Translations under genes and position numbers: made by a program | Shown here: in pieces, positions 3,183-43,900 of the stretch | Numbering within the stretch: position 1 is the stretch's first letter | Layout: each line of letters starts with the position of its first letter | DNA from: Gemmatimonadota bacterium | GTDB taxonomy: Bacteria > Gemmatimonadota > Gemmatimonadetes > Gemmatimonadales > Gemmatimonadaceae | Length of the DNA: 64,000 nt | Assembly: GCA_028287235.1 (NCBI GenBank) | Contig: JAQBQB010000023.1 | Coordinates: forward strand, 186,001 to 250,000 | Reading direction: 5' to 3' | The notes under the pieces: model-generated | The model's database searches: none | What the model saw: only the letters and a program-made list of their open reading frames with translations | What the model was told of the DNA's origin: nothing

Positions 3183-3518
3183 ATGACACTCGACGACTAT
3201 CAGCAGGCTGCGCTGCGCACGATCAACCCCGCCCTCGACGACCGCGATCGCCTGCTCGACGCGAGCGCCGGCCTCGCCGAAGAAGCGGCCGAAGTCCTGG
3301 GCCTGGTGCGCAAACGCACCTTCCAGCAGCGCACGATCGATCCCGCGAAGCTCACCGAAGAGCTGGGCGACGTGCTCTGGTGCCTCGCCGTGACGGCGAG
3401 CTCGCTCGGCCTCTCGCTGTCCGACGTCGCCGAGGCAAATCAAGCGAAGCTGGCGAAGCGCCATCCGGATGGATTCACGCGCGGGCCGGAGAGCTGGTCT
3501 CGGGCGGCGAAGGAGTAG
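3183..3518 (+). CDS. MazG-like nucleotide pyrophosphohydrolase
   Basis: This 111-residue all-alpha NTP pyrophosphohydrolase homologue carries the metal-binding signature of the superfamily: E34xxE37 in LAEEAAEV and E60xxD63 in EELGDVLW. Family members hydrolyse nucleoside triphosphates, often non-canonical ones, to monophosphate and pyrophosphate. It is one-domain length, like the short MazG-related phage and bacterial enzymes rather than the two-domain E. coli MazG. The ATG lies 2 bp after the permease stop, so the genes are probably co-transcribed. Its TAG stop at 3516-3518 is followed on the very next base by a heptamer repeat array. Confidence 0.8.
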   Translation: MTLDDYQQAALRTINPALDDRDRLLDASAGLAEEAAEVLGLVRKRTFQQRTIDPAKLTEELGDVLWCLAVTASSLGLSLSDVAEANQAKLAKRHPDGFTRGPESWSRAAKE

Positions 3519-3957
3519 CGTGGGGCGTGGGGCGTGGGGCGTGGGGCGTGGGGCGTGGGGCGTGGGGCGTGGGGCGTGGGGCGTGGGGCGTGGGGCGAAG
3601 TTACGCTAGCTGTCGCTGCCGGAGAGGTTGTTACGCCGAAAGGCGCATGCCCAAGAAACAAGACGGCACTGGCGACCGACTCGTCGGGCAGGAGTTCCGC
3701 CGCAGCCACTTCCGCACGCGTTGCGCACTAATCCCAAACGCCGATACGGACCAGCGATCCCGCAGTACGCGTTCGGCGAGACGCACTCGCCCAGTAAACG
3801 CCAGCCGTGCGTCTTTGACTTTGCACCCATCACGACCGAGTGAACAGAGCGAACCAACGTATCCGCTAACAGCTAGCTACGCCCCACGCCCCACGCCCCA
3901 CGCCCCACGCCCCACGCCCCACGCCCAACGCCCAACGCCCAACGCCCCACGCCTCAA
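3519..3957. repeat. inverted heptamer-array element A (unit CGTGGGG)
   Basis: The left arm at 3519-3595 is 11 perfect tandem copies of CGTGGGG. The right arm at 3881-3950 has 10 copies in opposite orientation (GCCCCAC, with three GCCCAAC variants), plus one degenerate copy to 3957. Just inside the arms is a further perfect 9-bp inverted match, GCTAGCTGT near 3608 with ACAGCTAGC near 3869, so the pairing extends into the spacer. The spacer of about 285 bp has no convincing gene. The element fills the gap between two convergent genes: the left arm starts right after the mazG-like stop codon, and the last degenerate unit of the right arm contains the stop codon of the ferredoxin reductase gene. 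The G-rich strand fits a four-tract G-quadruplex several times over. Confidence 0.85.
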
Positions 3958-4976
3958 TCGTCCGTCTGCCCGAAGATCGACATGTTCGACGAATGTCCCG
4001 GCGCGACCTTCTTCTCGGGATAGACCCAGTGCACCGCCTGGTTCACCGCCGTCGCCGCCTCGGCAAAGCCGGTCGCGATCAGCTTGAGCTTTCCGGGATA
4101 CGTCGTGATGTCGCCCGCCGCATAGATGCCGGCGCGCCCGGTTTCCATCATGCTGTTCACGACGATCTCCTCCTTCTCGAGCGTCAGCCCCCACTCGGCA
4201 AGCGGACCGAGATCGCTCACGAAGCCGAGCATCGGGAGCACGACGTCGGCCTCGAGCTCGCGCGTCGTCTTCGCCTTCACGTCGCGGATGTCCACGTGCG
4301 AGAACGCATCGGGATTCGACGTGCAGCGGATGTCGGCCAATTCATGAAACGTGAAGAGGCCGGCGCGATCCGCCTCGACCGCGGCCTGAAACTGCGCCAC
4401 CGTCGCGCCGTGCGCGCGGAACCGATCGCTGCGATGAATGATCGTCACGCGCTCAGCGCGGTCGAGCAGTTGCGTGCCCCAGTCGAACGCCGAGTCGCCG
4501 CCGCCCACGATGATCACCCGCCGCCCGCGAAACGCTTCCGGATCGGTGACCACGTCGAACACGCCGCGCCCGTACCATGGTTGCGCGCACGGCTGCGGCA
4601 GCCGGCGCGGCGAGAATGCACCGATGCCCGCGGCGATCACGATCGACCGCGACGGAAACCGGCCCTTGTCGGTGATCAACACGAAGTGATCCGCTTCCTG
4701 CTCCAATCCCACGACGCGTTGATTGAGATGCATCGGCGGATCGAACTGGCGCGCCTGTTCGGCGAGCGACTTCACGAGGTCCTTCGCCAGCACCTTGGGA
4801 AATCCGGCGACGTCGAAGATGTATTTCTCGGGGTACAGCGCGGTGAGCTGTCCGCCGAGCTCCGGGAGCGCGTCGACGATCTGCGCCGTTGCGCGGCGCA
4901 TGCCGGCGTAGAACGAGGCGAAGATCCCGGTGGGACCGCCGCCGATGATGGTGATGTCTTTGATGTCGTGGGGCAT
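3954..4976 (-). CDS. ferredoxin/flavodoxin-NADP+ reductase, thioredoxin-reductase-like (type 2)
   Basis: This 340-residue flavoprotein has two Rossmann motifs. The FAD site is ITIIGGGPTG at about residues 8-17 and the NAD(P)H site is VIIVGGGDSAFDW in the middle. A C-terminal GIYAAGDITTYPGK segment closes on the flavin. The CxxC redox pair of true thioredoxin reductases is absent, which is typical of the YumC/TrxR-like ferredoxin-NADP reductases. It would pass electrons between NADPH and ferredoxin or flavodoxin in the cytoplasm. ATG at 4976 is chosen because the longer frame reaching 5084 overlaps the divergent gene at 5083 and adds a low-quality extension. Its stop lies in a degenerate unit of repeat element A. 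Confidence 0.88.
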   Translation of the reverse strand: MPHDIKDITIIGGGPTGIFASFYAGMRRATAQIVDALPELGGQLTALYPEKYIFDVAGFPKVLAKDLVKSLAEQARQFDPPMHLNQRVVGLEQEADHFVLITDKGRFPSRSIVIAAGIGAFSPRRLPQPCAQPWYGRGVFDVVTDPEAFRGRRVIIVGGGDSAFDWGTQLLDRAERVTIIHRSDRFRAHGATVAQFQAAVEADRAGLFTFHELADIRCTSNPDAFSHVDIRDVKAKTTRELEADVVLPMLGFVSDLGPLAEWGLTLEKEEIVVNSMMETGRAGIYAAGDITTYPGKLKLIATGFAEAATAVNQAVHWVYPEKKVAPGHSSNMSIFGQTDD

Positions 4977-40221: not shown

Positions 40222-40644
40222 ATGACGAAGATTTTGTTGGTGGGCACGGAGCTGGCGCTCCTGGAAGGATTGTCGCAATCGCTCGCCAGTGCCGGGTTCA
40301 CCCCGCAGGTCGCCCAAACGCTGCATGAAGCTCGCGAGCTCGCGCTGCAGAGTCCTCCACTCGTCGCCGTCGTCAGCCGCGTGCTGGCCGCGGCCGCAAG
40401 CGGCGAAGCGCTGAGCATTCCGCTGGCAGCCGGCGGCGCGCTGCTGCTGTATCGCTCCGTCGGGAGCCTGCTCGTCACGCTCTCTCCCACGATGCAGCGC
40501 GCGGTGCTGGCGGATCTCACGCTACCCCTCGAGCGAAACCGCCTGATGGCGCTCGTGCAGTATGTCGGAGACCGGCTCAAGGTCACCGGGCGGGGACGGA
40601 CGAGCGGAGAAAACGAGAGCGTGCCGCCCGAAAGCAGGGTTTAG
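40222..40644 (+). CDS. degenerate receiver-domain protein (pseudo-receiver)
   Basis: This 140-residue protein starts like a response-regulator receiver (TKILLVGTELALLEGLSQSLASAGFTPQVAQTLHEARELALQSPP). The acidic pair that binds Mg2+ is missing (VGTELA rather than VDDD), and the strand that normally ends in the phospho-acceptor Asp reads LVAVVSR. Phosphorylation is therefore unlikely. It could be a protein-interaction module. The C-terminal 20 residues are polar and look unstructured. The stop codon falls inside the first G-rich heptamer of element D, so the final residues may have been changed by the repeat. Confidence 0.65.
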   Translation: MTKILLVGTELALLEGLSQSLASAGFTPQVAQTLHEARELALQSPPLVAVVSRVLAAAASGEALSIPLAAGGALLLYRSVGSLLVTLSPTMQRAVLADLTLPLERNRLMALVQYVGDRLKVTGRGRTSGENESVPPESRV

Positions 40645-40805
40645 GGTATTGGGTATAGGGTTTAGGGAAGGTGTGCGGGCGCGCCGTGGGCGCGCCCGCT
40701 TCGTTAGATGGCCTTTCTCGGTCCATCCATCAAGTCGCGCCGCAGGCGCGACGTACCTCCCCTAAACCCTGGACCCCGGCCCCTAGCCCCCGGTATCGGG
40801 GGCCC
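40633..40805. repeat. inverted heptamer element D (unit GGGTTTA) with internal hairpins
   Basis: The left arm (about 40637-40667) is read as GGGTTTA, GGGTATT, GGGTATA, GGGTTTA, GGG. The right arm (about 40758-40791), read on the minus strand, is GGGTTTA preceded by GGGTCCA, GGGGCCG and GGGGGCTA-like units, also about 7 bp apart. Between them are two perfect hairpins, GCGGGCGCGCC with GGCGCGCCCGC (about 40676-40700) and GTCGCGCC with GGCGCGAC (about 40734-40752). GCCCCCG at 40786-40792 pairs with CGGGGGC at 40797-40803. The left arm supplies the stop codon of the pseudo-receiver gene. The layout matches elements A-C but the unit differs. Confidence 0.7.
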
Positions 40806-40854
40806 TCTTCTCTGACCGTCCGCCCGCTATTAAGCTTCTGGTTACATCCGAGTT

Positions 40855-40906
40855 CGTGGCGATTTCAGGCAACTTGCGGCCACGTTAAATATTTCGCTAA
40901 AGCGCC
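40855..40906 (+). promoter_or_regulatory. candidate SAM-II-like riboswitch upstream of metH
   Basis: A 6-bp stem P1 (CGTGGC at 40855-40860 with GCCACG at 40879-40884) is followed by TTAAAT and GCTAAAGC, the order seen in SAM-II riboswitches. The P1 loop opens with GATTTCA, like the GATTT of SAM-II. Two pseudoknot helices form at the expected places: GCG 40876-40878 with CGC 40895-40897, and GGC 40868-40870 with GCC 40904-40906, with the six bases TAAAGC between them. SAM-II elements bind S-adenosylmethionine and reduce expression of methionine genes. An alternative hairpin (AAGCGC 40900-40905 with GCGCTT 40914-40919) would exclude the pseudoknot, and a T6 run follows at 40932. The metH ATG is at 40954. 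Confidence 0.65.
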
Positions 40907-40953
40907 GGCCCCAGCGCTTGCGTTGTGGGCATTTTTTCTATTCCGGCCTAACG

Positions 40954-43900
40954 ATGTCCGAAACGACCCTTCCGTATCCCGTCGCAGCACCGTCCTCGAA
41001 CGACACGTCGCCGAGCGCGTATCTGAGCGCCCTTGCCGACCGGGTCCTCGTGTACGACGGCGCGATGGGAACGAGCATCCAGCGCTTTCACCCCACCCCG
41101 GACGACTTCGGCGGAAAGTCGCTCGAGGGCTGCAACGACGTCCTCGTGCTCACGCGGCCCGACATCATCGGCGCGATCCACGAGTCGTTCCTTGCGGTGG
41201 GCTGCGACGTCGTCGAGACGTGCACCTTCCAGTCGACGCCGCACCGGCTGCGCGAATGGGGCATCGAGGAAAAGACCGCGGAGCTGAACATCGCCGCCGC
41301 GCGGTTGGCCCGCGCCGCCTGCGACAAGTATTCCACGCCCGACAAGCCACGCTTCGTCGCCGGCTCGATCGGACCCACCGGCATGCTGCTGTCGAGCAGC
41401 GATCCGGTGCTGTCGAAGACCACGTTCGCGGAGCTCGAGGAGAACTACTACATCCAGGCGAAGTATCTCGTCGAAGGCGGCGTCGACGTGCTGCTCGTCG
41501 AGACGGCGCAGGACATCCTCGAGATGAAGGCTGCCGTCGCCGGCTTCGAGCGGCTGTTCGCCGAGATCGGACATCGCGTGGCGGTTCAGGCGCAGGTCAC
41601 GCTCGACACGAGCGGACGCATGCTGCTCGGCACCGACATCGCGAGCGCGATGACGACGCTCGAGGCGCTGCGCGTCGACGTCATCGGGTTGAATTGCTCG
41701 ACGGGGCCCGAGCACATGCGCGAGCCGATCCGCTTCCTCGCGGAAAGCTCCACGCGGCCGGTGTCGTGTATTCCGAACGCCGGTCTGCCGTTGAACACGG
41801 GAACGGGCGACGCGGTCTATCCGCTCGAGCCGGTGCCGATGGCCGAAATGCTCGGCGAGTTCGTCGAGAAGTTCGGCGTGCGCATCGTGGGCGGGTGTTG
41901 CGGCACGACGCCGGATCATCTGGCGGCGATTGTCAAACGCGTGGGGCGTGGAGCGTTGGGCGTTGGGCGCGATGGCGACTCACTGCCTATGCCCCACGCC
42001 TCACGCCCCACGCCCAACGCCCCACGCCCAACGCCCCACGCCGGCTCGACTCGCGGGTCCAAGATTCCCCGCGCCTCGTCGGCCATGCGCGCCACCGACT
42101 TCGACCAGAACCCCAAGCCGCTGCTCATCGGCGAGCGCGTGAACGCGCAGGGCTCGCGGAAAGTGAAGCGTCTGCTCCTGGCCGAGGACTACGAGGGCAT
42201 CTCGGACGTAGCGCGCGAGCAGGTGGAGTCGGGCGCGCACGTGCTCGACGTCTGCGTGGCCGTCACCGAGCGCGGCGACGAAGCGGAGCAGATGGCGAAG
42301 GTCGTCAAGCTGCTCTCGATGACCGTCGACACGCCGATCATGATCGACTCCACCGAGCCGGCCGTGATTCAACGGGCACTCGAAGCGATTCCGGGGCGCG
42401 CGATCATCAACTCCATCAACATGGAGAATGGGCGCGAGCGCATCGACGCCGTGGTGCCGCTCGCCAAGAAGCATGGCGCGGCGCTCGTCGCGCTCACGAT
42501 CGACCCGATCGGCATGGCCAAGACGCGCGAGCGGAAGCTCGAGATCGCGAAGAAGATTTACGACATCGTCGTGCACGAGTATGGGCTCAAGCCGGAAGAT
42601 CTGATCTATGACGATCTGACCTTCACGCTCGCGACCGGCGATGCCGAATGGATCGACTCCGCCGTGGAGACGATCGAAGGCATTCGCCTCATCAAGCGCG
42701 AGCTGCCGGGCGTCTTCACGAGCCTCGGCGTGTCGAACGTGAGCTTCGGACTCAATCCGGAAGCGCGCGGCGTGCTCAACTCGGTGTTCCTGCATCACTG
42801 CGTCGAAGCGGGCCTCGACATGGCGATCGTGAACCCCGCGCACGTGCAGCCGTACGCCGAGATTCCGGACGAAGAGCGCGCGCTCGCCGACGACCTCGTC
42901 TTCAATCGCCGGCCCGACGCGCTGCAACACTTCATCGAGCGCTTCGATGGACGCGGCGCCGGCGCGGCGCGCGAAGTCGAAAAGGAAGATCCCACCGCGG
43001 GCATGACCGCCGATCAGAAAGTGCACTGGATGGTCGTGCACCGAAAGAAAGAGGGCATCGAGGCGGCGCTCGACGAGGCCGGCGTGCGCGAGCAGCCGGT
43101 GCGCGTGCTCAACGAGGTGCTGCTGCCCGCGATGAAGGAGGTCGGCGACAAGTTCGGCGCGGGCGAGCTGATTCTGCCCTTCGTGCTGCAATCGGCCGAA
43201 GCGATGAAAAAAGCGGTGAAGCACCTCGAGCAGTTCCTGGAGCGCGCCGAGGGCTATACCAAAGGACGCGTCGTGCTCGCGACGGTGTACGGCGACGTGC
43301 ACGACATCGGCAAGTCGCTCGTCAACACGATTCTCTCGAACAACGGCTACACCGTGTTCGACTTGGGCAAGCAGGTGCCGGTGAACACGATCATCGAGAA
43401 GGCGCTCGAGGTGAACGCCGACGCGATCGGTCTGTCGGCGCTGCTCGTCTCGACGTCGAAGCAGATGCCGTTGTGCGTGCAGGAGCTCGACCGGCGCGGC
43501 ATTCACATTCCGGTGCTCATCGGCGGCGCGGCGATCAACCGCCGCTTCGGCCGGCGCGCGTTGTACGTGGAAGGCGAGCGCGCGTACGACTCGGGTGTGT
43601 TCTACTGCAAGGACGCGTTCGAGGGGCTCGACACGATGGACAAGCTCCAGGATGTCGAGGGTCGTTCCGCGTACATCGGCAAACTCCTCGAGGATGCGCG
43701 CAACGACAAATTCCTGCACGCTAACGTGGGCAAAGACATGTCGTCGGGCACGTCCGACGGAAAGCGCAGCGAGGTCTCCGCGGACAATCCGGTGCCGAGC
43801 TCGCCCTTCTTCGGCACGCGCACGCTCACGGACATTCCGCTCGACGAAGTGTTCGCGCTGCTCGACCTCGACGAGCTCTATCGCCTGCAGTGGGGCGGTC

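Follow-up and report, generated by a model that had tools for sequence, protein, structure and literature searches.

Element A and its neighbours

The window analysed here is a stretch of 64,000 nucleotides from a genome of the Gemmatimonadota (G000; 5.73 Mb in 31 contigs). Element A occupies a junction in this window on which two genes converge: on the left a gene for MazG (PF03819), and on the right a gene for a Pyr_redox_2, thioredoxin-reductase-like protein, called FNR-like below. The arms of the element are opposed tandem arrays of the heptad CGTGGGG, and their positions, together with those of the other features in the window, are collected in Table 1. The preliminary description of this DNA had reported 11 + 10 inverted copies filling the convergent gap, with the left arm beginning directly behind the MazG stop and the FNR-like stop lying inside the last, degenerate unit of the right arm. 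We found the same arrangement on each count, with the refinement that the ten units of the right arm comprise seven CGTGGGG and three CGTTGGG; this arm ends 2 bp short of the FNR-like stop, which falls within the degenerate unit ATTGAGG. The heptad array is not a product of chance: the two-unit 14-mer has 41 matches in the window at up to two mismatches, against 1.6 expected in shuffled sequences. Each arm also contains two non-overlapping matches to the G-quadruplex (G4) rule, which is a rule on sequence only, and both converging genes have the G strand as their coding strand, which agrees with the earlier statements that the rule is met several times and that both transcripts would read into the array.

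Table 1. Positions of element A, its parts and the other heptad-armed elements within the window
Feature	Position	Strand	Remarks
Left arm of A, 11 perfect CGTGGGG units, plus partial CG at 3596-3597	3519-3595	+	Flush with the MazG stop TAG, 3516-3518
Original loop of A, left piece CGAAGTTAC	3596-3604	+	
GCTAGC target duplication, copy 1	3605-3610	.	Hexamer also flanks both ends of the intact IS481-family element in G008
IS481-family insertion remnant, 261 bp, TGT...ACA ends	3611-3871	.	Left end matches IS ends of the family; right-end match marginal; IS481 transposase in the G008 copy
GCTAGC target duplication, copy 2	3872-3877	.	
Original loop of A, right piece TACG	3878-3881	+	
Right arm of A, 10 CGTGGGG/CGTTGGG units	3882-3951	-	FNR-like stop TGA (3954-3956) in the next, degenerate unit
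Copy B, 6 units on +, 2 perfect units on -, 13-bp loop	36706-36774	.	Left arm flush with TAG; right arm forms the C-terminal tail of an EVE-domain protein
Second-family member, GGGTNTA heptads on either side of a hairpin core, the second set inverted	40636-40793	+	Upstream of metH
Copy C, 4 units on +, 7 units on -	41940-42040	.	In frame, in the MetH linker between homocysteine and pterin domains

A probable IS481-family remnant in the spacer

The arms of A are separated by a gap of 286 bp, in which the hexamer GCTAGC occurs twice and encloses a segment with TGT...ACA ends (Table 1): the loop of A contains a target duplication together with IS481-type ends. The IS481 target is quoted as NCTAGN, with a 6-bp duplication cited in the reference list, in PMC3053399, and the two hexamers in the spacer have this CTAG-centred, 6-bp form. 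The left end of the enclosed segment matches sequence in the family genome G018 at 94% over 34 bp, with shorter matches in other family genomes, and in several of these genomes the matching sequence is preceded by GCTAGC or CTAGC. In G008, a similar left end heads an element of 1,033 bp that has GCTAGC on both sides and encodes an IS481 transposase. When the remnant was compared with this element, none of 2000 shuffles scored as well as its left end, while 108 of 2000 scored as well as its right end, which is thus a marginal match. The spacer resembles the IS481 family in its TGT...ACA ends, its 6-bp CTAG-type target duplication and its left-end sequence, and differs from it in being only 261 bp long, with no transposase gene left.

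With the remnant removed, the loop of A reads CGAAGTTACGCTAGCTACG, a near-match to the loop CGAAGTTGCGCAGCTACG of another copy in the same genome (L207). The spacer is explained, then, as a putative loop of about 19 bp that was split by a 261-bp IS481-family remnant, and this accounts for a spacer that had looked like part of element A. The 9-bp inverted pair that the preliminary description placed next to the arms does exist exactly (GCTAGCTGT at 3605-3613, ACAGCTAGC at 3869-3877). Given the GCTAGC duplication and the IS481-type ends, however, it is made up of the tips of the transposon together with the palindromic target duplication, and is a transposon footprint outside the array.

Other origins for spacer sequence were considered and set aside. 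For the spacer of A as a gene or cargo, no match was found in plasmids or elsewhere in G000, and the IS481 remnant explains it instead. A likeness of 40 bp to a gene in G093, which may be release-factor-like, was put down to probable chance. The spacer of a further locus (L039) was considered as an IS256 relic, and this resemblance found no support from Pfam or NCBIfam.

The heptad family across the genome

The heptad is dispersed through G000: a three-unit 21-mer pattern, allowing up to two mismatches, has 136 matches genome-wide, while the reversed control pattern has none. We examined 36 loci, comprising the three sites in the window and 33 fetched from the rest of the genome. Both arms (at least two units each, no more than 400 bp apart) are present at 16 of them, and the polarity is uniform, with the G-rich arm first in all 16 and the opposite order in none. 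The placement of 39 arms of at least three units was scored against genes from a simple codon-based gene caller. Of these arms, 25 are intergenic: convergent genes flank 8 of them, divergent genes 3, and tandem genes the rest, with the G strand coding in 7 and template in 7. The arms that are not intergenic lie within called genes (10) or at contig edges (4). Neighbouring gene pairs in a background sample of 264 kb were 141 tandem, 32 divergent and 31 convergent. Copies B and C in the window (Table 1) show that, as their predicted frames read, arms can be translated.

Many arms are flush with gene ends. When a sense gene lies just upstream (n = 17), the distance from its stop to the arm is 0 bp for 9 arms and 2 bp for 4, and the other four lie at -12, -5, 8 and 252 bp from it; when the upstream neighbour points away, 6 of 11 arms lie 3-11 bp from its start codon. 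The stop that adjoins an arm is TAG in 11 of 16 cases, compared with 67 of 198 sample genes (p 0.005), and TAG directly precedes 12 of the 54 arms that have two or more units, compared with 21 of 14,624 CGT sites in the sample. At some loci a terminator-like hairpin could be recognized by eye between the arms, and a search for a loop motif common to all elements yielded no enriched 7-mer beyond the arms themselves. The arms of two loci (L048, L052) contain 14-bp higher-order repeats, which point to slippage.

Congeners and unit turnover

Arrays of CGTGGGG, sought by the three-unit pattern, are absent from all five same-genus genomes; weaker related heptads were detected by BLAST in one of these, G003. 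The junction that holds A is only 2 bp long in the congener G005, so that A is extra DNA there, and it is about 23 bp long in G001. In G003, MazG is flipped relative to its neighbours (L230, G003:C9:34800-38200) and no array is present. Other heptads occupy some of the shared junctions: congener heptads were found at three of six compared junctions and at none of the other three. At the junction of copy B, G005 carries GGACCGT units, and at that of copy C an inverted pair of GTGGAGA units, while at the L048 junction G003 has a pair of 7/8-bp arrays flanking a terminator-like hairpin. At the L207 and L214 junctions no heptads were seen in congeners, where other palindromes or terminator-like hairpins are present. 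Separately, at three places where G000 has heptads, namely the metH linker of G003 (L228), a locus in G001 (L313) and another in G003 (L333), we observed a different palindromic repeat, of the type GTCATCC...GGATGAC / GGAATGAC.

The period-7 runs in 400 kb of G005 are mostly intergenic. Six distinct heptad units from this genome were tested against the G4 rule, which one meets and five fail. With all samples pooled, an inverted mate lies no more than 350 bp away for 11 of 30 period-7 runs, compared with 19 of 172 runs that have another period (p 0.001); the reversed control gave 0 of 30 and 1 of 172, respectively. By sample, the period-7 signal amounts to 7 of 13 runs in G005, 4 of 5 in the window, 0 of 9 in G003, 0 of 2 in another sample of G000 and 0 of 1 in G004. 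Because relatives build like structures from different seven-base words, layout appears to be more important than letters. In this genus the unit changes, and its G4 capacity with it, while the 7-bp period, the inverted arrangement and part of the sites come back, offering a natural way to tell the role of period from that of G4.

Arrays of CGTKGGG also occur elsewhere, in at least 116 named stretches. Among the 119 arrays listed, an inverted mate of the type searched for lies within 400 bp in 6 cases, so pairing is not a general feature of arrays of this unit. Long mixed CGTTGGG/CGTTGAG arrays, several of them close to gene ends, were observed in Limnohabitans genomes (L072, L074, L076, L088, L093, L103, L105, L116, L123, L124, L136).

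A second family with GGGTNTA arms

An element upstream of metH in the window belongs to a second family, found at 25 places in G000 (the window and 24 others at E ≤ 1e-20; among them L339-L358, L040, L213 and L215). Alignment of 22 copies gives an element of about 158 bp, in which four or five heptads, which are plant-telomere-like, are followed by a core with two strong conserved hairpins and then by inverted heptads. The family shares with the CGTGGGG family a common plan of inverted heptad arms. Among 99 family genomes it was found at E ≤ 1e-6 in G000 only, with none seen in the other 98, and the element has no match in Rfam at gathering thresholds. Of 35 pairs, 4 showed double changes and the covariation term was close to zero; for this reason we do not claim conservation at the RNA level. 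Adjoining the window copy, and likewise upstream of metH, is a match to the SAM_alpha riboswitch (40846-40920; 44.4 bits, gathering threshold 36).

Comparison with known repeat systems

As quoted in PMC4679880, heptamers outnumber every other class of long simple repeats in most surveyed bacterial genomes. G-quadruplex formation is one idea for their role. Measured against the published accounts cited in this section, in the parts drawn on here, the G-rich heptamer repeats of Xanthomonas and Nostoc come closest, and A belongs to their kind, with a different unit. Rehm et al. 2015 (PMC4692102) describe the units GGGNATC and GGGGA(C/T)T, mostly intergenic, near ORF ends and with the G strand directed away from the ORF, with no function found; convergent inverted pairs number 70 in Xcc and 75 in Xac, and 83% of the Xcc repeats share their context with Xac. 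The A family likewise has a tandem 7-bp unit with a G-tract of at least three, is dispersed with a non-coding bias and a similar placement, and forms convergent inverted pairs with the G strand away from the ORF at all 16 two-armed loci. As far as that account goes, the differences are that the unit of A is GGGGCGT and neither of the Rehm units; that many of its arms are exactly flush with a stop; that the unit is absent in congeners, in contrast to the sharing between Xcc and Xac, indicating faster turnover; and that the congeners have other units, which in G005 are mostly not G4-forming.

Two further systems are less similar. The TAACTGA repeats of marine Beggiatoaceae are, like A, intergenic 7-bp tandem repeats adjoining gene ends, but by the portion of PMC4679880 cited here they are direct, run mostly toward start codons and are not G-rich, with one indirect repeat beside 169 sets. 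The REP/BIME elements with their RAYT transposase resemble A in that they are palindromes scattered outside genes, paired in inverted orientation at gene ends and uncertain in their role; in contrast to A, they are described in the cited part of PMC2817692 as single palindromes of 20-35 bp, often starting with GTAG and served by a dedicated transposase, whereas the arms of A are 7-bp tandem arrays. A search for the Y1 transposase (PF01797; RAYT) found no match in G000 and a match in one of the six genomes of the genus, and on this test A does not qualify as REP/BIME with RAYT. A search of open-licence papers found no description of a GGGGCGT or GGGTNTA family.

Origin and role of the elements

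With a probability of roughly 0.6, we interpret A as a copy, at a gene junction, of a lineage-specific, fast-changing family of palindromic heptad repeats, whose arms are opposed 7-bp tandem arrays, the G-rich arm coming first whichever strand is read. The arms would grow and shrink by 7-bp slippage, probably coupled to the formation of a hairpin or cruciform in which one arm templates the other. Copies would persist where extra DNA is tolerated, that is, past stops, ahead of starts and in protein linkers, and the sequences of their units would change rapidly. Later, an IS481-family element would have inserted into the loop of A at its CTAG target and then decayed to the present remnant. Transcription from either side would give RNA with a 3′ hairpin of very high stability. 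This hairpin may stabilise or terminate transcripts, an effect that we read as a by-product; folding of the arms with the relic removed, representing the element before insertion, is predicted at -188.7 kcal/mol, and its stability makes an effect on transcript ends possible. In favour of our interpretation are the dispersal and uniform polarity of the arrays, the arms flush with stops, the absence of the unit from congeners and their use of other heptads at some shared junctions, the excess of inverted mates among period-7 runs, the 14-bp repeats within arms, the resemblance of the relic-free loop to that of L207, and the IS footprint. Three points count against our interpretation: the three of six junctions at which congeners lack heptads, the lack of an exact inverted mate for any of the nine period-7 runs in G003, and the marginal right end of the relic. 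In addition, slippage alone does not explain the presence of one unit at dozens of loci, and the close fit of arms to stops, like the overrepresentation of TAG, goes beyond what plain tolerance would give; targeting or function could account for both.

The preliminary description regarded A as a genuine element, which stands, and suggested that it acts as a bidirectional terminator or roadblock. In such a mechanism the G-rich arm, as a G-quadruplex or R-loop, followed by the perfect hairpin would stop polymerase from both sides, or would shield 3′ ends. At A itself this is possible, as judged from the sequence: the G strand is coding for both genes, the G4 rule is met, the predicted fold is very stable, and a pattern scan of 3300-4200 for an intrinsic terminator (a short GC-rich hairpin followed by a T-run) found 0 sites, so that an ordinary terminator is absent. 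By this pattern A itself does not qualify as an intrinsic terminator, and the absence of a T-run speaks against the proposed mechanism. The many arms flush with stops also agree with a terminator, but the arms close to start codons and within genes do not, nor does the even use of the two strands between tandem genes (7 and 7). Five of the six G005 units fail the G4 rule, and several loci have what by eye is a separate terminator-like hairpin between the arms. Because placement is mixed, most G005 units lack G4 capacity and separate hairpins are present at some loci, termination as a general role is not supported, and we consider this explanation unlikely.

A broader proposal is that a process specific to period 7 and independent of G4 continues to write inverted heptad arrays, with species-private units, into the gene junctions and linkers of this genus. 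Palindromes with heptad arms, the telomere-like GGGTNTA elements among them, would then be non-autonomous elements of a new class, with repeated 7-bp enzyme sites as their ends. In our estimate this combination is rather unlikely. A reverse transcriptase was considered as the writer and rejected: the heptad-bearing G005 has no PF00078 match, while G000 and G003 have one each.

We regard as distinctly improbable the related explanation that the elements are non-autonomous transposable elements, moved by some enzyme that binds the iterated 7-bp sites at their ends. It would account for one unit at dozens of loci in a single species among its congeners, for the loop common to A and L207, and for the 25 places at which a GGGTNTA element combines a conserved core with arms. 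Yet no target duplication was seen outside the arms of A, unit numbers vary freely, the loops have no common motif, and G000 has no Y1 transposase match.

An assembly artefact is scarcely credible: each of the 36 loci has its own flanks, and similar structures are present in separately assembled congeners. Errors in copy number are still conceivable. What speaks for an artefact is that heptad arrays lie at or near the start of contigs C1 and C16 and the end of C15 (L041, L043, L052), the end of C15 running into an implausible poly-C tract; these breaks suggest that the arrays hinder sequencing or assembly.
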